From Sideroxydans lithotrophicus (GTDB lineage Bacteria > Pseudomonadota > Gammaproteobacteria > Burkholderiales > Gallionellaceae): a DNA stretch of 64,000 nt. The stretch is taken from the NCBI GenBank assembly GCA_020723185.1, contig DYJI01000005.1, positions 124,001 through 188,000 on the forward strand, read 5' to 3'. A program made the position numbers and the translations under genes. Of this stretch, positions 30,903-60,122 are shown one piece after another (the first letter of the stretch is position 1; every line of letters begins with the position of its first letter). The notes beneath the pieces are model-generated. The model ran no database searches, had not been told where the DNA came from, and saw only the letters and a program-made list of their open reading frames with translations.

Positions 30903-32729
30903 ATGCTACCAGATGCCAACCCGATCTATGGTGAATCCCCCCGCTGCGACCTTCATGCGGATTTGCATGAGATCGTTGCAAGGCATTGTGGCGAAAAGAC
31001 TAATCTGCTGCAGCTGCTGATCGAAGTGCAGGCCTGCGCCGGCTACATCCCGGCCGATGCCGCCTCCTATATTGCCGCCACGCTAGCCATCCCGCGCTCC
31101 CGCATCGAGAGCGTCGCCTCCTTTTATTCCTTCCTGCACCTGAAGCCCGCAGGCGAATATCGAGTGCTGTTCTCCGACAACATCACCGACCGCATGCTGG
31201 GCAACCAGGACCTGATGGAACAGATGTGCCGCCAGCTGTGGGTGCAACCGGGCAAGGTCTCCGAGGACGGCCTGCTCAGCATCAACACCACCTCCTGCAC
31301 TGGCATGTGCGACCAGGGCCCGGCCATGCTGGTCAACGGGCGCACCATCACCCGGCTCGGCTCGCAGCGCATCCAGGAGATCGGCCAGTTGATCCGCAAC
31401 CGCACACCGGTCGCAGAATGGCCGGAAGACTATTTCAAGGTGGAGAACAACATCCGCCGTGGCGGGTTGATCCTGAACAACAAACTCGCCTATGGCCAAG
31501 TGCTGCAAGCTACCAAGGCGCTCAAACCAGAAGCCATCATCAGCACGATCAAGGAATCCAATCTGCGCGGTCGCGGCGGGGCGGGTTTCCCCACCGGCAT
31601 GAAGTGGGAAGCCTGCCGCAACGCCGATGGCGAAGCGCGCTATGTGGTTTGCAACGCCGACGAGGGCGAACCCGGCACCTTCAAGGATCGCGTATTGCTC
31701 ACCGCCCAGGCCGATCTGGTGTTCGAAGGCATGACCTTGTGTGCACGCGCAGTCGGTGCGAAGAAAGGCTTCCTCTACCTGCGCGGGGAATACCGCTATC
31801 TGCTGAATCATCTGCATGCCGTACTGCAACGCCGCCGCGACAGCGAACTGCTGGGCGAGGACATCCTCGGCGAGCGGGGTTTCGATTTCGACATCGAGAT
31901 CCATCTCGGTGCCGGTGCCTATATCTGCGGTGAGGAATCCGCGCTCATCGAATCGCTGGAAGGCAAACGCGGCGTGCCGCGCAACCGCCCGCCGTTCCCG
32001 GTCACCAACGGCTATCTGCAACAACCCACCGCCGTGGACAACGTCGAGACCTTCTGCCAAGCCGTGATGGCGCTGCATATGGGCGCGCCGGCCTATCGCG
32101 CCATCGGCACCGAGAAATCCAGCGGCAGCAAACTCATCTCCGTCTCCGGCGACTGCGCCAGCCCCGGCATCTACGAATACCCGTTCGGCGTCAGCGTGCG
32201 CCAGATCCTTACTGACTGCGGCGCGGTCAACACACGCGCCGTGCAGATCAGCGGCCCGTCCGGCATGTGCATCGGCGAACACGAGTTCGACCGCAAACTC
32301 GGCTTCGAAGACCTGCCCACCGCCGGTGCCTTCATGGTGTTCGACGACAGCCGCGACATGTTCGAGGTGGCGCGCAACTTCGTGCATTTCTTCGCGCACG
32401 AAAGCTGCGGCTTCTGTACCCCGTGCCGCGTCGGCACCTCGATGCTGAAACAGACCATGGACAAAGTCGCCGCCGGACACGGCACCCAGCACGACCTGAC
32501 CGAGATCGAGAATCTGGACCATGTGTTACAGACCACCTCGCACTGCGGCCTCGGCCGCACCGCCTGCAACCCGGTGCTGCACACCCTCAAACACTTCAGG
32601 CCCGCCTATGAGACCCGCCTGAAATCGCTGGATTTCGAACCCGCCTTCGACCTCGACGGCGCACTGGCCCGCGCCAGGCAGATGACCGGACGCGACGATG
32701 CCGGGGCACACCTGAAGGAAAACGAATGA
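30903..32729 (+). CDS. hoxF: NAD-reducing hydrogenase diaphorase subunit HoxF
   Basis: The flavin-containing diaphorase subunit that passes electrons between NAD(H) and the HoxU/HoxY clusters. It is a 608-residue NuoE-NuoF fusion typical of HoxF. The N-terminal thioredoxin-like part (about 1-170) keeps only the second cysteine pair of the NuoE [2Fe-2S] site (SCTGMC, C132/C136); the region where the first pair belongs (VLFSDNITDRML) has none. The NuoF part has GRGGAGFPTGMKW and the NAD/FMN stretch ADEGEPGTFKDR, then the [4Fe-4S] ligands C502, C505, C508 and C548. It overlaps hoxU by 4 bp. It is first in a hoxFUY operon and divergent from rep. Confidence 0.93.
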   Translation: MLPDANPIYGESPRCDLHADLHEIVARHCGEKTNLLQLLIEVQACAGYIPADAASYIAATLAIPRSRIESVASFYSFLHLKPAGEYRVLFSDNITDRMLGNQDLMEQMCRQLWVQPGKVSEDGLLSINTTSCTGMCDQGPAMLVNGRTITRLGSQRIQEIGQLIRNRTPVAEWPEDYFKVENNIRRGGLILNNKLAYGQVLQATKALKPEAIISTIKESNLRGRGGAGFPTGMKWEACRNADGEARYVVCNADEGEPGTFKDRVLLTAQADLVFEGMTLCARAVGAKKGFLYLRGEYRYLLNHLHAVLQRRRDSELLGEDILGERGFDFDIEIHLGAGAYICGEESALIESLEGKRGVPRNRPPFPVTNGYLQQPTAVDNVETFCQAVMALHMGAPAYRAIGTEKSSGSKLISVSGDCASPGIYEYPFGVSVRQILTDCGAVNTRAVQISGPSGMCIGEHEFDRKLGFEDLPTAGAFMVFDDSRDMFEVARNFVHFFAHESCGFCTPCRVGTSMLKQTMDKVAAGHGTQHDLTEIENLDHVLQTTSHCGLGRTACNPVLHTLKHFRPAYETRLKSLDFEPAFDLDGALARARQMTGRDDAGAHLKENE

Positions 32730-33457
32730 CCGACACCTTCCAGTTAGACGGCGTAGCCGTCCCGTTCGAACCCGGCCAAACCGTGATGCAGGCGGCACTG
32801 GCCGCCGACCATTACATCCCGCACCTGTGCTACCACCCGGAATTCAAGCCGCACGGCAGCTGCAAGCTGTGCACAGTCAAGGTCAACGGTCGCACCATGG
32901 CGTCCTGTACCATGCCGGCCGAAGCCGGGCTGGAAGTGGAAAGTGAGATTGAAGAACTCAACGCACTGCGCCGCACGCTGGTGCAGATGCTGTTCGCCGA
33001 AGGCAACCATTTCTGCCCGTCGTGCGAAAAGAGCGGCAACTGCATGCTGCAGGCGCTGGGCTACGACCTTGAAGTGCACGCCGCCGGTTTCCGTCACCAG
33101 TATCCCGACCGGCCGCTGGATGCCTCGCATCCCGACATCCTGCTCGACTTCAACCGCTGCATCCTGTGCGAACTGTGCGTGCGCGCCTCCAGCGAGGTCG
33201 ATGGCAAGAACGTGTTCGCCCTGGCAGGGCGGGGCAACACCAAGCACCTCATCGTGAATGCGGAATCCGGCCAGCTCAGGGACACAGACATCGCGCTCAG
33301 CGACAAAGCCATGCAGGTCTGCCCGGTCGGCGTGATCCTGCCCAAACGCGTCGGCTTCAGCCAGCCCATCGGCGAACGCCGCTACGATGCAAGCCCCATC
33401 AGCGCGCAGGCGCTGGCAGACGCACCGCGTCCGCCGTCGGGAGCGGAACATGACTGA
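32726..33457 (+). CDS. hoxU: NAD-reducing hydrogenase diaphorase subunit HoxU
   Basis: Electron-transfer subunit homologous to the NuoG N-terminus, 243 residues. Cluster ligands are visible in order: the [2Fe-2S] site (CYHPEFKPHGSCKLC and a later C in MASCTMPAEAG), the His-Cys3 [4Fe-4S] site (HFCPSCEKSGNC) and the [4Fe-4S] site CILCELC with the remote CPVG. The start overlaps hoxF (ATGA), and its 3' end overlaps hoxY by 8 bp, so the diaphorase and hydrogenase small subunit are made together. Confidence 0.93.
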   Translation: MTDTFQLDGVAVPFEPGQTVMQAALAADHYIPHLCYHPEFKPHGSCKLCTVKVNGRTMASCTMPAEAGLEVESEIEELNALRRTLVQMLFAEGNHFCPSCEKSGNCMLQALGYDLEVHAAGFRHQYPDRPLDASHPDILLDFNRCILCELCVRASSEVDGKNVFALAGRGNTKHLIVNAESGQLRDTDIALSDKAMQVCPVGVILPKRVGFSQPIGERRYDASPISAQALADAPRPPSGAEHD

Positions 33458-33995
33458 CAAGAAGAAACTGCGCATCGCGACCACCTCGCTGGCGGGCTGC
33501 TTCGGCTGCCACATGTCCATCCTGGACATCGACGAACGCCTGTTCCCGCTGCTCGAACTGGTCGAGTTCGACCGCTCACCCATCACCGACATAAAGCACT
33601 GCGGCCCGTGCGACATCGGCATCGTCGAAGGCGGCATCTGCAACGCGGAGAACGTGCATGTGCTGCGCGAATTCCGCAAGAACTGCAAAGTGCTCATCGC
33701 CATCGGTGCCTGTGCCATCAACGGCGGATTGCCTGCCCAGCGTAACCACCTCGACCTCAGCGCCTGCCTCACCGAGGTCTACCTCACCGAGCCGGGGCTG
33801 GTACACGGTCACATCCCCAACGACCCCGAGCTACCGCTGCCGCTGGACAAGGTGCATCCGCTGCACGAAGTGGTGAAGGTGGATTACTTCATCCCCGGCT
33901 GCCCGCCTTCAGGCGATGCCATCTGGAAATTCCTCACCGACCTCATCTCCGGCAAGACGCCTGAGTTGGGTCACGGACTGATCCATTACGATTGA
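33450..33995 (+). CDS. hoxY: NAD-reducing hydrogenase small subunit HoxY
   Basis: Small subunit of the [NiFe] module, holding the proximal [4Fe-4S] cluster. It is short (181 residues), as expected for HoxY, with cysteines in SLAGCFGCHMS (C17, C20), IGACAINGG and FIPGCPPSGDAIW. There is no Tat signal, so it is cytosolic. ATG 33450 follows GGAGCGGAAC. In related organisms hoxH follows directly; here an unknown membrane-protein gene does, and hoxH lies about 25 kb away at 58635 on the other strand. Confidence 0.93.
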   Translation: MTDKKKLRIATTSLAGCFGCHMSILDIDERLFPLLELVEFDRSPITDIKHCGPCDIGIVEGGICNAENVHVLREFRKNCKVLIAIGACAINGGLPAQRNHLDLSACLTEVYLTEPGLVHGHIPNDPELPLPLDKVHPLHEVVKVDYFIPGCPPSGDAIWKFLTDLISGKTPELGHGLIHYD

Positions 33996-34651: not shown

Positions 34652-36361
34652 TCAAGGCATAGGTGTGCTGCAGACGCGATCTCGACCGGTCTGTTTCGCT
34701 TGGTAGAGTTGCATGTCTGCCTCATGGATCAGTTCTTCCAGCACCATCTCCGCACTGCGCGTCGCAATACCGAAGCTGGCCGTCATCGACAACACACCGT
34801 CGCCAGCGGGGATACGCAACTCGCTCACCGCCCGCCGCAAACGCTCGGCATGGTTCACCGCCTGCTGCAAGCCGGTCTCAGGCAACAGCAGCACGAACTC
34901 CTCGCCGCCCCAACGCGCCACCACATCGCTGCTGCGCGACATCCGTTTCAGCATGTTGGCCACTGCCACCAGCGCCTCGTCGCCGGTCTTGTGCCCGTAA
35001 CGGTCGTTGATGGATTTGAAATGATCGATGTCCATCACCGCCAGGCTCAGCGGCCGGTCATGCCGTGCCGCCGTATCCACCAGCGGCTGCGCCGCCTCCT
35101 GGAATGCACGCCGGTTGTTCAGCTGCGTCAGCGCATCCTGCCGCGCCACCTGTTCCGCCAGATAGCGCGCCTCTCGGTGCTGGCGCATCCAGTGCGCAAG
35201 GGCCAGCGCCAGCAGGGTCGCCTCGATCAGCAGACCGATCTCCGCCGCATGGAAGGTGAACAGGCTGAACGGAATCTTGCCCCACACCGACAATGCGGTA
35301 AGCCCGACGCCCAGCATGCCGAAAAAGGTGGCGAACAGGAAATAGCGCGCAGACGGCCGCTGCCGCCAGACGCTGACCAGACCCAGCACGAACATGCCCG
35401 CAGTGAAAGAGCTCATGCTCACGAAAGCCAGCAGCCCGGCCAGCAACTGGCTGCCCAGCAACAGAGCGAGCAGCATGCCGCCGAGGGAGAGCCCCATGCT
35501 CCAGCACACCACGCGCTGGGTGCGGGGCAGATACTGCGCCAGCATCAGGAAACGCGAAGCGAACAACAATCCGAACGCGTTATAGACCACCATGGAGACC
35601 AGGATCACATAGCGCTGGAAACCCGTGGACTGCGGCCACAGCCAGCCCGCGCCATGCCCGGTGTAAGCCACATTGCAGAACAGGACGCTCAGCAGCGCCA
35701 GCGCATAATAAAGATAGCTGCGCTCACGCGTCCCGGTGTACAGCAACAGGTTGTAGGCTCCCAGCGCGATCATGAAGCCGAAGAAGAAACCGTAGAAATA
35801 ACCGAATTGCAAGCGATGGGATGCGTAGACCTCCGGCATCATCAGCTCCAGCGGCAAAGCCATCGGATCGACCGACGCCACCCGCAGCAGCACCTCGCTG
35901 CGCCCCGGCGGCAACTGCAACGGCAGCACATAGCCCATGCCCGGTATCAGCCCTGGCGCATCAGGCAACTCATCCCCGGTATGCACCGCATGGCGGCTGC
36001 CGTCCGCATGCATCACATACACATCCAGCCGGTCCAGCCAGGTCACGCCCGCCAGCAACATGCGCGGCTGCACCTCGCGCGTATCGTTCTCCAGCGACAG
36101 ATGTAACCACACCGGTCTGGAGCCGATGCCGAAATCGGGCACCGCCATCGTCACCGGCTTGAAGGCACCCGACCGCAACTGCGACAGCGCCTCGTCCAGC
36201 CCCAGCGCGACATCTCCCTCGACCAGCTGTACCGCATAGAGGCCGAGCGAACCCGTCGGCACTTCCGACAGGCGAAAAGCGTCCGCCGCCTTCGCCAAGG
36301 GCGCTACGCAAAGCAAATAAAGGAGCAGCAGCTTCAAGAAGCTGGCAGTCAAAGTGTTCAA
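34652..36361 (-). CDS. 7TM-DISM diguanylate cyclase
   Basis: A membrane diguanylate cyclase. Order: signal peptide (LNTLTASFLKLLLLYLLCVA), a periplasmic 7TMR-DISM extracellular beta domain (about 30-170), seven membrane helices (about 180-390), a short coiled linker (HWMRQHREARYLAEQVARQD), and a GGDEF domain with active-site variant GGEEF (RWGGEEFVLLLP). No EAL domain is present, so it should make c-di-GMP. The TTG start at 36361 is chosen because AGGG lies 6 nt upstream and the signal peptide begins there; ATG 36427 in the same frame is the alternative and adds 22 residues. It converges with the unknown hox-linked membrane gene. Confidence 0.88.
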   Translation of the reverse strand: MNTLTASFLKLLLLYLLCVAPLAKAADAFRLSEVPTGSLGLYAVQLVEGDVALGLDEALSQLRSGAFKPVTMAVPDFGIGSRPVWLHLSLENDTREVQPRMLLAGVTWLDRLDVYVMHADGSRHAVHTGDELPDAPGLIPGMGYVLPLQLPPGRSEVLLRVASVDPMALPLELMMPEVYASHRLQFGYFYGFFFGFMIALGAYNLLLYTGTRERSYLYYALALLSVLFCNVAYTGHGAGWLWPQSTGFQRYVILVSMVVYNAFGLLFASRFLMLAQYLPRTQRVVCWSMGLSLGGMLLALLLGSQLLAGLLAFVSMSSFTAGMFVLGLVSVWRQRPSARYFLFATFFGMLGVGLTALSVWGKIPFSLFTFHAAEIGLLIEATLLALALAHWMRQHREARYLAEQVARQDALTQLNNRRAFQEAAQPLVDTAARHDRPLSLAVMDIDHFKSINDRYGHKTGDEALVAVANMLKRMSRSSDVVARWGGEEFVLLLPETGLQQAVNHAERLRRAVSELRIPAGDGVLSMTASFGIATRSAEMVLEELIHEADMQLYQAKQTGRDRVCSTPMP

Positions 36362-36561
36362 CGGAAACCCTATCCAGGATGAAGCCGATGTGACACGTAC
36401 TGAAAGAACCACTTCAGCGCGCCGCATCTTAGCACCGCAGACACTCCGATGCAGTCGCAACAGCGGCCTATATATTCTGGCCTGCTGAAGAGGAGGGCCT
36501 GAGCAGTCAGGCATCGATTCTTTAGGGATGGATGGTCCGACTCTGAAGTCTGGTGCCGGAC

Positions 36562-36667
36562 AAAAAAATGCCCCCATCCCTTTCAGGACAGGGGCAAAGG
36601 TCTCAACTAAGGGGGAAGTCAAGACCTCACGCTCAGGGAGGAGAAACGTGAAGTAACTCTCGTTACT
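36562..36667 (-). ncRNA. Structured small RNA with anti-Shine-Dalgarno loop (candidate)
   Basis: Minus-strand transcript of about 106 nt inferred from structure. Four stem-loops follow one another: AGTAAC-GAGA-GTTACT (36667-36652); TCACG/CGTGA (36651-36627) whose loop holds CTCCTCCCT; AGGTCT/AGACCT (36627-36598) with a TTCCCCCTT loop; and a terminator TGCCCC/GGGGCA followed by seven T (36596-36562). A TATCTA -10-like box ends 7 nt before the first A. The CTCCTCC loop is complementary to ribosome-binding sites. It resembles the anti-SD small RNAs reported as toxic in betaproteobacteria; that assignment is from memory and unverified. No protein is encoded here, and the remaining intergenic DNA (36362-36851) shows no gene. 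Confidence 0.7.
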
Positions 36668-36807
36668 GTTGCCGTAGATAAGCATTCGCTAATAAAGTTC
36701 CGAAGATTTTTTTATTTACAGAACCCATGGCTCCGTCATTCATGCGAGGGAATTCGCCTTTAAGTATTTTTCCTGAATTGGCATAATCCAGCCCCGCAAT
36801 AACCCAT

Positions 36808-36831
36808 TAGCCCTCGAACGAAAGAGGGCTA
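36808..36831 (+). promoter_or_regulatory. Hairpin in the tex leader
   Basis: TAGCCCTC/GAGGGCTA, an 8-bp perfect stem with an 8-nt loop, 20 bp before the tex ATG and downstream of a CATAAT -10-like box (36782-36787). It has no T-run on the plus strand, so a leader structure is more likely than a terminator. Confidence 0.35.
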
Positions 36832-36851
36832 TTTAATCTGCAGGTCAATAA

Positions 36852-39200
36852 ATGCTCCCACCCATCGAACAACGCCTCGCCACCGAAATATCCGCAAAGC
36901 CGTCCCAGATCGCCGCCGCCATCGCCCTGCTGGACGAAGGTGCGACCGTGCCTTTCATCGCCCGTTACCGCAAGGAGGCGACAGGCGGGCTGGACGATAC
37001 GCAACTGCGCATGCTGGAAGAGCGACTGCGCTACATGCGCGAGCTGGAAGAGCGTCGCACGGCGATCATCGCTTCCATCACCGAGCAGGGCAAGATGACG
37101 CCGGAGCTTTTGCAGGCCGTGGCGCATGCAACGGACAAGACGCATCTGGAAGATTTGTATCTGCCCTACAAGCCGAAGCGCCGCACCAAGGCGCAGATCG
37201 CGCTGGAGGCGGGGCTGGAGACGCTGGCGGATGCACTGCTGGCGAACCCCACGCTGAACCCGGAAGAAGAGGCGGCCAAGTATCTGCGCGAGCCTTTCAC
37301 CAACGAGGCGGGCGATGCCAACCCTGGTGTGGCGGATGCCAAGGCGGCGCTGGATGGCGCGCGGCAGATTTTGATGGAACGCTTCGCCGAGGATGCAGGC
37401 CTGCTGCAATCGCTGCGCGAATATGTGCAGCAGCATGGCGTGGTGCAGTCCAAGGTCATCGAGGGCAAGAACGAGGCGGCGGAGAAGTACGCCGACTATT
37501 TCGATTATTCCGAATCCATCAACACCATTCCTTCGCACCGCGCGCTGGCGGTGTTCCGCGGTCGCCGCGAGGAGATGCTGAGCGTGGAACTGCGGCTGGA
37601 TACGGAAAAAGAAAAACCCACCTGGTCTTCACCACACAACCCGTGCGAGGCGCGCATCGCGGCGCGTTTCAACATCAAGGACATGAACCGTCCCGCCGAC
37701 CGCTGGCTGCTGGACACCGTGCGCTGGACTTGGCGCGTAAAGATGTTCATGCATCTGGAGACCGAGCTGATGGGCGCGCTGCGCAGCAAGGCCGAGACCG
37801 AGGCCATCAACGTGTTCGCGCGCAACCTGAAAGATCTGCTGCTGGCCGCACCGGCCGGGCAGCGCGCCACCATGGGGCTGGACCCCGGCCTGCGCACCGG
37901 CGTGAAAGTGGCGGTGGTGGACGAGACCGGGAAGGTGGTGGATACCGCCACCATCTACCCGCACCAGCCGCGCAATGACTGGAATGTGTCCATCGCCATC
38001 TTGGCACAGATGGCGCAGAAACATAAGGTCTCGCTCATCTCTATCGGCAACGGCACCGCATCGCGCGAGACCGACCGCCTGGCGCGCGACCTCATCAAGC
38101 TGCATCCCGAACTCAAGCTCACCAGCATCGTCGTGTCAGAAGCGGGCGCGTCGGTGTATTCCGCATCGGAGTTCGCCTCGCGCGAATTGCCGGAGCTGGA
38201 TGTGAGCCTGCGCGGTGCGGTGTCCATCGCACGCCGCCTGCAAGACCCGCTGGCCGAGCTGGTAAAGATCGATCCCAAATCCATCGGTGTGGGCCAGTAT
38301 CAGCACGACGTGAGCCAGGTGCAACTGGCGCGCTCGCTGGATGCGGTGGTGGAAGACTGCGTGAACGCGGTGGGCGTGGATGTGAACACGGCCTCGGCGC
38401 CTCTGCTGGCGCGCGTCTCCGGCCTCTCCAGCAGCGTGGCGCAGGCCATCGTCAACCATCGCGACCTCAAGGGTAAGTTCGCCAGCCGCGCCGAACTGCG
38501 CGAAGTGCCGCGTCTGGGCGACAAGACCTTCGAGCAGGCGGCGGGCTTCTTGCGCATCATGGGCGGCAATAATCCGCTCGATGCTTCGGCGGTGCACCCC
38601 GAGTCGTATCCGCTGGTGCAGCGCATCCTCGAAGACATCAAGCAGGACATCAAGGGCGTGATCGGCAACGGCAAGCTGCTGCATTCGCTCAACCCCTCGA
38701 AGTACGCGAACGAGCAGTTCGGTATCCCCACCATCTCCGACATCCTCAAGGAACTGGAGAAGCCGGGCCGCGACCCGCGCCCCGAGTTCACCACCGCCAG
38801 CTTCAAGGAAGGCGTGGAAGACCTGAAGGACCTGGAGCCCGGCATGATCCTCGAAGGCGTGGTGACCAACGTCGCCGCGTTCGGCGCGTTCGTGGACATC
38901 GGCGTGCATCAGGATGGTCTGGTGCACATCTCCGCGTTGGCCGACAAGTTCGTCAAAGACCCGCACACCGTGGTGAAAGCGGGGCAGGTGGTGAAGGTGA
39001 AGGTGCTGGAGGTGGACGTGAAGCGCAAGCGCATCGCGCTCACCATGCGCATGTCCGACACGCCGGGGCAGGGCAGGGCCGAGCCGCAGCATGCGCCGCG
39101 CGACCAGCGCCATGCGGGCAAGCCGCACAAGCCTCAGCAACAACGCCAGCCCGAGCCGGCGGGGGCGATGGCGGCGGCGTTCGCGAAGTTGAAGGGATAA
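36852..39200 (+). CDS. tex: Tex family RNA-binding transcription accessory protein
   Basis: A 782-residue Tex protein. The layout is an N-terminal helical Tex domain ([44 protein letters not shown]), a YqgF-like RNase H fold domain ([20 protein letters not shown]), helix-hairpin-helix motifs ([16 protein letters not shown]), and a C-terminal S1 RNA-binding domain (about 655-730, [21 protein letters not shown]). A Gln/Pro-rich basic tail follows. Tex influences transcription and toxin expression in several pathogens, but its biochemical role is not settled. It is read away from the sRNA region and followed by two small DUF genes. Confidence 0.95.
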
Positions 39201-39844: not shown

Positions 39845-39920
39845 TGGCGTCCCCTACGAGATTCGAACTCGTGTTATCGCCGTGAAAGGGCGGTGTCCTA
39901 GGCCTCTAGACGAAGGGGAC
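39845..39920 (-). tRNA. tRNA-Glu (anticodon TTC), copy 1
   Basis: 76 nt, acceptor GTCCCCT, anticodon stem-loop GCCCTTTCACGGC (TTC), T-loop GTTCGAATC, encoded CCA. Identical to the copy at 39993-40068 and last in the minus-strand tRNA transcript. Confidence 0.96.
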
Positions 39921-39992: not shown

Positions 39993-40068
39993 TGGCGTCC
40001 CCTACGAGATTCGAACTCGTGTTATCGCCGTGAAAGGGCGGTGTCCTAGGCCTCTAGACGAAGGGGAC
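39993..40068 (-). tRNA. tRNA-Glu (anticodon TTC), copy 2
   Basis: 76 nt, same sequence as copy 1, located 20 bp after tRNA-Ala on the minus strand. Confidence 0.96.
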
Positions 40069-40088: not shown

Positions 40089-40164
<76 letters not shown>

Positions 40165-58635: not shown

Positions 58636-60122
58636 CACAGCTGCGCAACACAGAATCCATCAGAGCCGCGTGATAACATATCGACCCGCTTCCCTTCGGC
58701 ATCCAGCAACTCCACCTCCAGCGGCATCTTGCCCAAGGCATGCGTCGCGCAGGAGAGGCAGGGATCGAACGCGCGGATCGCGACCTCGATATGATTTAGC
58801 AAACCTTCGGTCAGCTTCCTGCCGTCGATATACTGGCGCGCCACCTGACGGATGGATTCGTTCATCGCCTGATTGTTATGCGTCGTGGAGACGATCAGGT
58901 TGCAGCGCACGATCTGGTCGTTCTCATCCACACGGTAATGATGGATCAAGGTCCCGCGCGGCGCTTCGATCACCCCGACACCGCGCTCCTGGCGCTGGCC
59001 GATGTTGACCAGATCCGCCCCTTGCAGGTCGGGATCGTGCAGGATGTCGCGAATCAATTCGGCCGCATGCAACATCTCTATCATGCGCGCCCAGTGAAAG
59101 CCCAGCGTCGCTTTGGCAGCCTTGCCATTCTCGAAGGCCATGAATGACTTGCGTTGCGCTTCGGCCAGCGGTGTGGAGATGAAGTCGCACTGCGTCACGC
59201 GCGACAGTGGCCCAACGCGGTACCAACCCTGCTCCGGCCCCAAGCGGCGCAGGAAAGGGAACTTCATATAGGACCATGGCTTCACATCTTCGAGGATCTC
59301 GTCCCAGTAATGGCTGGTATCAAAATGATCAAAGATCGTCTCGCCATCCATCGCTCGTGCGCGCAAGCCGCCGTCATAAAGCTCCAGCGCGCCATCTGCG
59401 CGCACCGTGTTGAGCGTATGCGCATCGAAGCTGCCGAAGCTGCTGTACATCGCCAGGTCCTGCTCGAACAGATTGCGCACGATACCGATAGCCGCCTCAC
59501 TCCACGCCACCATCTGGTCGACATCCTTCAGCAGATAGTCGCGCTCCTCGATACTGACATTCTTGTTCACCCCGCCCGGGATGGAACCTGTGCCATGGAT
59601 GCGCTTGCCCGCCGTGATACGGATCACCTCCTGACCGAACTTGCGCAACAGCACGCCCTGTTTGGCGATCTCGGGATAGGCGGCGGCGATGCCGACGATG
59701 TTGCGTTTGGCCACATCGGAACCGAAGCCGAACAACAGATCGGGCGAACACAGGTGGAAGAAATGCAAAGCGTGCGACTGCAGGATCTGGCCGTAATGCA
59801 TCAAACGACGCACTTTCTCCGCCGTCGGCGTCAGCGTCGACCCCACCACCCTGTCCATCGCCTTGCTGGCAGCCAGATGGTGACTCACCGGACAGATGCC
59901 GCACAGCCGCTGCACCATCACGGAAGCTTCCCAGAAAGGACGGCCCTGGATGAATTTCTCGAACCCCCGGAACTCGACGATATGTAATCGCACCTGATGC
60001 ACGCGGTCGTTCTCGTCCAGCAGCAATGTCACCTTGCCATGCCCCTCGACACGGGTCACCGGGTCGATAGCGACGCGACGAAGTTTCTCAGGCGAAACGG
60101 CATTTTCCAGCTTGTCAGTCAT
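58635..60122 (-). CDS. hoxH: NAD-reducing hydrogenase large (NiFe) subunit HoxH
   Basis: Carries the NiFe active site of the cytosolic bidirectional (group 3d-like) hydrogenase. The 495 residues have the N-terminal RLCGICPVSHH (C74, C77) and C-terminal DPCLSCATH (C455, C458). The chain continues 34 residues past His461, the tail to be cleaved by HoxW. Conserved blocks DPVTRVEGHGK and EFRGFEKFIQGRPFWE mark the HoxH type. It heads a hoxH-hoxW-hypA-hypB operon, about 25 kb from hoxFUY and on the opposite strand. ATG 60122 was preferred to an upstream extension without homology. Confidence 0.94.
   Translation of the reverse strand: MTDKLENAVSPEKLRRVAIDPVTRVEGHGKVTLLLDENDRVHQVRLHIVEFRGFEKFIQGRPFWEASVMVQRLCGICPVSHHLAASKAMDRVVGSTLTPTAEKVRRLMHYGQILQSHALHFFHLCSPDLLFGFGSDVAKRNIVGIAAAYPEIAKQGVLLRKFGQEVIRITAGKRIHGTGSIPGGVNKNVSIEERDYLLKDVDQMVAWSEAAIGIVRNLFEQDLAMYSSFGSFDAHTLNTVRADGALELYDGGLRARAMDGETIFDHFDTSHYWDEILEDVKPWSYMKFPFLRRLGPEQGWYRVGPLSRVTQCDFISTPLAEAQRKSFMAFENGKAAKATLGFHWARMIEMLHAAELIRDILHDPDLQGADLVNIGQRQERGVGVIEAPRGTLIHHYRVDENDQIVRCNLIVSTTHNNQAMNESIRQVARQYIDGRKLTEGLLNHIEVAIRAFDPCLSCATHALGKMPLEVELLDAEGKRVDMLSRGSDGFCVAQL

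Follow-up and report, generated by a model that had tools for sequence, protein, structure and literature searches.

The closest described relatives of the RNA reported here are the anti-hemB RNAs (Rfam family RF02837), which have a hairpin displaying CTCCTCCCTGA and a terminator. The Burkholderia transcript of this family, ncS04, is given as 105 nucleotides (nt) long, with Hfq binding cited and no significant change across seven conditions in B. cenocepacia, in the portions of the report available to us (PMC5688073). Neither these portions nor those of PMC3521395 name a regulator or a confirmed target of anti-hemB RNA, and in the literature that we searched no title or abstract opening links anti-hemB RNA to a sigma factor. 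A second point of reference is sX13 of Xanthomonas, for which the sections of PMC3771888 at hand describe a translation block at G-rich sites and the motif UCCCCCU, reported both in loop 3 of sX13 and in HPnc5490. The Rfam entry and the transcript of anti-hemB RNA are already known; what is new here is the RpoE-type reading of a TATCTA box ahead of one such RNA, together with a site in the rpoE message.

The RNA in question is encoded within a 64,000-nt stretch of Sideroxydans lithotrophicus DNA, hereafter called the window. A first-pass annotation had drawn attention to four minus-strand stem-loops at 36562-36667, the last of them a terminator, and this arrangement was borne out by reading of the sequence, by folding, and by a pattern scan that recovered the terminator independently (Table 1). 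More specifically, the 106-nt segment folds with -47.9 kcal/mol, as compared to a mean of -27.64 (standard deviation 3.45) for shuffled sequences (z = -5.87; 0 of 200 shuffles as good), and the z-score falls to -3.22 when 45 nt of flanking DNA are included (151 nt). The stem of hairpin 3 has 10 pairs, two of which are G-T. Hairpins 2 and 3 do display the pyrimidine loops described earlier (i.e., CTCCTCCCT and TTCCCCCTT, respectively), and predicted unpaired probabilities are at least 0.97 across CCTCCCT and 1.0 across TCCCCCTT, whereas the C that opens CTCCTCCCT (0.2) and the G after CCTCCCT (0.03) are mostly paired. Open C-rich apical loops, as expected of a C-rich-loop (anti-Shine-Dalgarno) small RNA, are therefore present in the predicted fold.

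Table 1. Features of the small RNA locus and its neighboring genes (coordinates are those of the window)
Feature	Position	Strand	Remarks
A-tract directly upstream of the -35 element, possible UP element	36707..36713	-	Six consecutive A columns identical in five tex-linked copies
Putative -35 element GGAACTT, RpoE-type	36695..36701	-	Identical in five aligned tex-linked copies
-10 element ATCTAC (overlaps TATCTA box)	36674..36679	-	15-nt spacing as in genus rpoE and most anti-hemB promoters
Small RNA gene, four hairpins	36562..36670	-	~106-109 nt; putative 5' end; fold z-score, RF02837 match, covariation
Hairpin 1, GNRA-type loop GAGA	36652..36667	-	36667-36662 pairs with 36657-36652
Hairpin 2	36627..36651	-	36651-36647 pairs with 36631-36627; CTCCTCCCT in loop at 36643-36635
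Proposed anti-Shine-Dalgarno seed CCTCCCTG	36641-36634	-	In hairpin 2; invariant in 14/14 genus copies
Hairpin 3, second C-rich loop TCCCCCTT	36599..36626	-	36626-36617 pairs with 36608-36599; loop 36616-36609
Hairpin 4 plus T-run, intrinsic terminator	36562..36596	-	36596-36585 pairs with 36580-36569; seven T at 36568-36562
7TMR-DISM GGDEF (diguanylate cyclase) gene, downstream neighbor	34652..36361	-	Pfam PF07696, PF07695, PF00990; putative TTG start
tex gene, divergent neighbor	36852..39200	+	Pfam Tex_N, Tex_YqgF, HHH, S1

A search against all Rfam families returned anti-hemB RNA as the best match (RF02837; 43.7 bits, E = 6.1e-9), full-length and short of the 49.5-bit cut-off. The earlier suggestion that the locus might belong to the betaproteobacterial toxic small RNA family (RF02278) did not survive the covariance search that had been proposed for it: this family reached 16.5 bits at the locus, the cut-off being 50, and the best score in the whole genome was 20.2 bits, with nothing above the cut-off. 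Scores at the locus were also far under the cut-offs for sX13 (RF02232; 24.9 bits versus 50) and NmsRb (RF02877; 19.7 bits versus 52), and membership in all three families was dropped. The window RNA resembles RF02278 and the double-hairpin RNA ncS27 in having CU-rich loops able to cover ribosome-binding sites; those RNAs, however, have two hairpins, as described in the portions of PMC5688073 available to us, as opposed to four here, and with the scores given above we regard this assignment as hardly credible.

Elsewhere in the genome lies a canonical anti-hemB copy (L001; 60.6 bits), which lies between genes resembling engB and hemB and points away from the latter, whereas the window copy sits between tex and the GGDEF gene, away from hemB. 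The window RNA nonetheless has both RF02837 features, i.e., the hairpin displaying CTCCTCCCTGA and the terminator. RF02837 matches above the cut-off were found in 31 of 34 genus genomes and in none of 14 control genomes; matches below the cut-off are uninformative, as 13 of the 14 control genomes have them at E values of up to 10 and six at 0.01. Second copies in two other species exceed the cut-off, with 52.6 bits (G025, near tex) and 55.1 bits (G014). Judged from its sequence, the locus is a diverged, relocated (tex-linked) second copy, or paralogue, of anti-hemB RNA. The idea of a new type of RNA consequently holds only in part: the RNA is diverged, under the RF02837 cut-off and away from hemB, but it is a sister of the known anti-hemB RNA.

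Twenty second-copy candidates were fetched, of which 13, from 13 other genomes, carry the CCTCCCTG core and were aligned with the window copy (14 copies, 114 columns); the other seven (L053, L054, and L056-L060) do not have CCTCCCTG and were excluded. Within this alignment CCTCCCTG is identical in 14/14 copies, and hairpin 3 has at least four consecutive C in 13/14. The compensatory changes that the first-pass annotation had proposed to look for in relatives were found: across the 14 copies, 14/31 pairs had substitutions in both partners, including 5/6 pairs in hairpin 1 and 5/12 in the terminator hairpin, and the covariation score was 0.283 versus 0.166 for shuffled alignments (0/500 shuffles). 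Paired cells amounted to 91.5 percent versus 85.2 percent after shuffling (0/500 shuffles), and structures slid along the alignment reached only 34 to 42 percent; for one of the five measures used, the number of further pair types, 36/500 shuffles did as well. In the five tex-linked copies, a conserved block extends from the A-tract and GGAACTT through the last T and falls off outside these limits. A covariance model built from the 14 copies matched 138 of the 150 family genomes, from 14 of 15 genera, and its matches take in the canonical copies. By conservation, then, the locus is a real small RNA gene, and its description as an RNA of anti-Shine-Dalgarno type is backed by covariation, by conservation from promoter to T-run, by its Rfam relative, and by the predicted open C-rich loops.

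Further hairpin-bearing stretches were seen along the way. In the same genome, a third CTCCTCCCTG stretch precedes a terminator-like hairpin on the minus strand of L006 (~1501-1563; C9:333631-333693), with 18.5 bits for RF02837, and is possibly another small RNA. In two other species there are CTCCTCCCC-containing, hairpin-like stretches that also have a terminator, similar to each other and without the CCTCCCTG core (L057, 3972-4049; L059, 4030-4104), which perhaps represent a further small RNA family.

As for gene context, tex is found near the RNA in 5/14 genus copies (the window and four others), at distances of 0.2 to 2.9 kb, and also, in a different orientation, at a locus of another genus (L234); the remaining second copies have other neighbors. 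The GGDEF gene is separate from the small RNA gene and begins ~200 nt downstream of it on the same strand. This order, which is repeated in L045, would be compatible with the hairpins being a terminator-bearing cis leader of the GGDEF gene. However, the GGDEF gene precedes the small RNA in L043 (G009), and in other genomes there are other neighbors; with synteny breaking among the second copies in this way, the leader reading was discarded as very improbable. The GGDEF frame (34652-36685, minus strand) stays open for more than 100 codons across the small RNA, up to 36685, so that an open reading frame list alone would place the RNA within a 677-amino-acid frame and an automatic gene call could mask it. 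Also noted in the window were three minus-strand tRNA genes (39848-39920, 39996-40068, and 40092-40164), two of which score identically in repeat-like DNA with the third adjoining, and hoxF/hoxU/hoxY-like genes at 30903-33995 (plus strand), ~25 kb away from a gene for the large subunit of a hydrogenase (58638-60122, minus strand) that is 95 percent identical to the L055 gene, itself next to another copy of the small RNA. Where the family search was silent, the names hoxF, hoxU, hoxY, engB, and hemB are our assignments from the appearance of the proteins.

The TATCTA box is present at 36680-36675, 7 nt ahead of hairpin 1, as the first-pass annotation had stated; this promoter-like box nevertheless appears to fit an RpoE-type promoter better than a sigma-70 promoter, and a sigma-70 scan of 36340-36870 found no promoter. 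In the four other tex-linked copies, the -10 element reads ATCTAT. Five genes of the genome contain Sigma70 region 2, one of which matches the RpoE model TIGR02939 and is followed by a gene for an RseA-type anti-sigma factor. The promoter of rpoE itself, TGAACTW-N15-GTC at 30/30 genus loci (L068-L097), has the same layout as the small RNA promoter and is autoregulatory-looking in its sequence. Ahead of rpoE, [GT]GAACTW-N15-GTC occurs at 28/67 order loci and at 2/28 loci in other orders, and a looser pattern at 47/67 order loci (L278-L347 set). Among canonical anti-hemB loci of the genus, 22/30 have [GT]GAACTA-N15-GTCTGA. The strict motif [GT]GAACTW-N15-RTC was counted at the loci recovered by the extraction pattern, which missed the others (27/30 canonical, 13/14 second-copy, and 29/30 order-level loci): it is present in 24/27 canonical genus copies, 7/13 genus second copies, and 7/9 second copies of other genera, as compared to 11/16000 random windows. 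Order-level anti-hemB genes have the strict motif in 8/29 cases and a -35-like [GT][GA]AAC[TC] in 27/29.

By eye, promoters of the GGAAC type precede 8/14 second copies, and TTGACA-N17/18-TATTCT, which is sigma-70-like, precedes 6/14 (L041, L044, L047, L049, L050, and L052), where it takes the place of GGAACTT while the rest of the upstream DNA is similar, apparently an exchange of one controlling sigma factor for another. These six copies lend some weight to the alternative that sigma-70 or another factor drives the small RNA and that the GGAACTT box is incidental, as does the window -10 element, in which ATCTAC deviates from GTC and so counts against RpoE control, the -35 element and spacing being in agreement with the RpoE motif. 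We nonetheless consider this alternative unlikely, given that the scan of the region returned no sigma-70-like promoter and that GGAACTW stands at equal spacing in eight of the 14 second copies and in other genera, as compared to the random frequency given above.

Scored with a matrix built only from rpoE promoters, which is too narrow to decide the window promoter, the window site came 29th of 127,946 window positions, with 22/500 shuffles equalling it; for the four other tex-linked copies this was 1 to 2/500. Genome-wide, the pattern GGAACTW-N16-TCTNA, which cannot match the window promoter as the last -10 base differs, has two sites, one at anti-hemB and the other not ahead of any gene recognizable as RpoE-controlled; since the reversed control pattern has three, the motif by itself defines no regulon. 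At least 120 stretches were surveyed and 80 of them compared; among the matches listed, loci of Gallionella, Gallionellaceae, and Sideroxydans encode HemB proteins with 85 to 93 percent identity to that of this genome, and Burkholderia and Paraburkholderia loci are laid out differently, TGGTATAT preceding the RNA. The unchanged level of ncS04 across seven conditions counts against sigma-E control, although the B. cenocepacia locus (L177) has only a loose GGAAC match 74 nt upstream, off the usual place. Overall, this promoter anatomy supports a putative control of the small RNA by RpoE.

In this genome, the rpoE message starts with ATGGGTGACAGGGAGGTCGAT. Its codons 3-6 hold CAGGGAGG, which is perfectly complementary over 8 nt to the invariant CCUCCCUG. 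Counting against this candidate pairing, the final G of CCUCCCUG is predicted to be paired (unpaired 0.03), and the rpoE site is itself partly paired in the prediction. The Arg residue at codon 4 is encoded by AGG in 30/30 genus genes. Across eight genes of the window AGG accounts for 12 of the 261 Arg codons, and 18 further positions in rpoE codons 1-180 are mainly Arg, none with a fixed codon. Codons 1, 2, and 7 are likewise fixed in 30/30, and the rpoE start is therefore under other constraints as well.

Near the start, CAGGGA is present in 28/30 genus rpoE genes versus 2/208 other genus gene starts. For the order, matches to rpoE were obtained in 88/100 genomes and 70 loci were examined, three of which had no recognizable start; the controls were 30 loci, none of the same order and two without a recognizable start. 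They came from a class-level search in which all genomes except this one and one other belonged to other orders, and we take the control genomes to be gammaproteobacterial from their GTDB class. TCAGGGA was found at 19/67 order rpoE starts (15/42 families) versus 0.72 expected from shuffles, at 7/705 other starts, and at 0/28 rpoE starts in other orders of the class, counts in which the rows are related species and exact-test p-values overstate significance. The position of CAGGGA/TCAGGGA differs by lineage: in the genus it falls on codons 3-6, in other lineages 12-22 nt upstream of the presumed start.

G-rich sites are also found outside rpoE. UCAGGGAG occurs upstream of two genes, one for a porin of the FadL type and one for a SoxA-type cytochrome. 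In the same genome, the loop 2 complement TCAGGGAGA stands just ahead of the ATG of a FadL-type outer-membrane protein gene (L392:1515-2834, plus strand) and of a SoxA/TsdA-type cytochrome gene (L399:682-1500, minus strand). The 13-nt loop complement has 94 genome sites with at most two mismatches, two of them being the two RNA genes themselves; the reversed pattern has 22. A crude ranking of duplexes with 84 starts put rpoE in 4th place, and the three starts ahead of it are G-rich upstream as well. An Hfq gene is encoded in the genome.

These observations bear on a second alternative, in which the anti-Shine-Dalgarno paralogue controls many metabolic or envelope genes, rpoE is unrelated, and the G-rich rpoE start is a conserved ribosome-binding or early-codon feature. 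The UCAGGGAG sites ahead of the FadL-type and SoxA-type genes, the genome-wide excess of the loop complement over the reversed pattern, and the invariance of rpoE codons 2 and 7 would all fit such an account. So would the distribution of TCAGGGA at rpoE, which is uncorrelated with presence of the small RNA: it was seen in 17/56 order genomes with an above-cut-off match and in 2/11 without one (Fisher p = 0.72), which counts against the link with rpoE. The alternative is at odds, however, with the strong excess of CAGGGA/TCAGGGA at rpoE starts over those of other genes and with the differing positions of the motif among lineages, and we rate it as possible rather than probable.

Our preferred reading is that the locus encodes a sigma-E-driven anti-hemB paralogue that blocks G-rich ribosome-binding sites and possibly translation of the rpoE message, and we give it a probability of roughly 0.58. 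The product would be a free-standing, trans-acting small RNA of ~106 nt whose level, from the RpoE (sigma-E)-type promoter, would be expected to rise in envelope stress. Its stable stems would keep the two C-rich loops open. Base pairing of loop 2 (CCUCCCU followed by G) and loop 3 (UCCCCCU) with G-rich ribosome-binding sites could then prevent the initiation of translation, as reported for sX13. The rpoE message would be among the likely targets, through pairing of CAGGGAGG with CCUCCCUG, and the sigma-E response may in this way be subject to negative feedback. Other candidate targets are messages that have a UCAGGGAG site, e.g., that of the FadL-type outer-membrane protein.

A broader version, which we advance only tentatively, would give the sigma-E response of betaproteobacteria an RNA arm in the whole anti-hemB family, the relocated copy included: RpoE would transcribe these RNAs, their invariant loop would cover the CAGGGA at the rpoE start and lower rpoE translation, messages for outer-membrane proteins would be shut off, and some paralogues would have been rewired to growth by a sigma-70 promoter. 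If the sigma-factor link and the concrete target site are true, anti-hemB function becomes directly testable in many betaproteobacteria, and a feedback design of sigma-E and small RNA would exist with an unrelated RNA.

In enterobacteria, RybB and MicA are sigma-E-dependent small RNAs, and RybB represses outer-membrane protein genes, including fadL. The window RNA would be like them in its putative RpoE-type promoter and its envelope-stress logic; RybB and MicA act through their 5' ends or single-stranded seeds and are not known to use C-rich apical loops, and we know of no sequence relation between them and the window RNA. With sX13 it has in common stable stems, apical C-rich loops, and proposed G-rich targets near starts, but sX13 folds into three stems and is described as Hfq-independent in the portions of its report available to us, and the covariance score sets the two apart. 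NmsRb of Neisseria is similar in its CU-rich unpaired stretches and its terminator, as far as the accessible portions of PMC5688073 describe it, and differs by its score. Closest of all is anti-hemB RNA, ncS04 of B. cenocepacia among them: the RF02837 model aligns with the window RNA over its full length, and the CTCCTCCCTGA loop hairpin, the terminator, and a length near 105 nt are common to both; the window RNA differs in falling under the Rfam cut-off, in adjoining tex rather than hemB, and in carrying its second C-rich loop on hairpin 3, whereas canonical genus anti-hemB copies carry it on the terminator hairpin.
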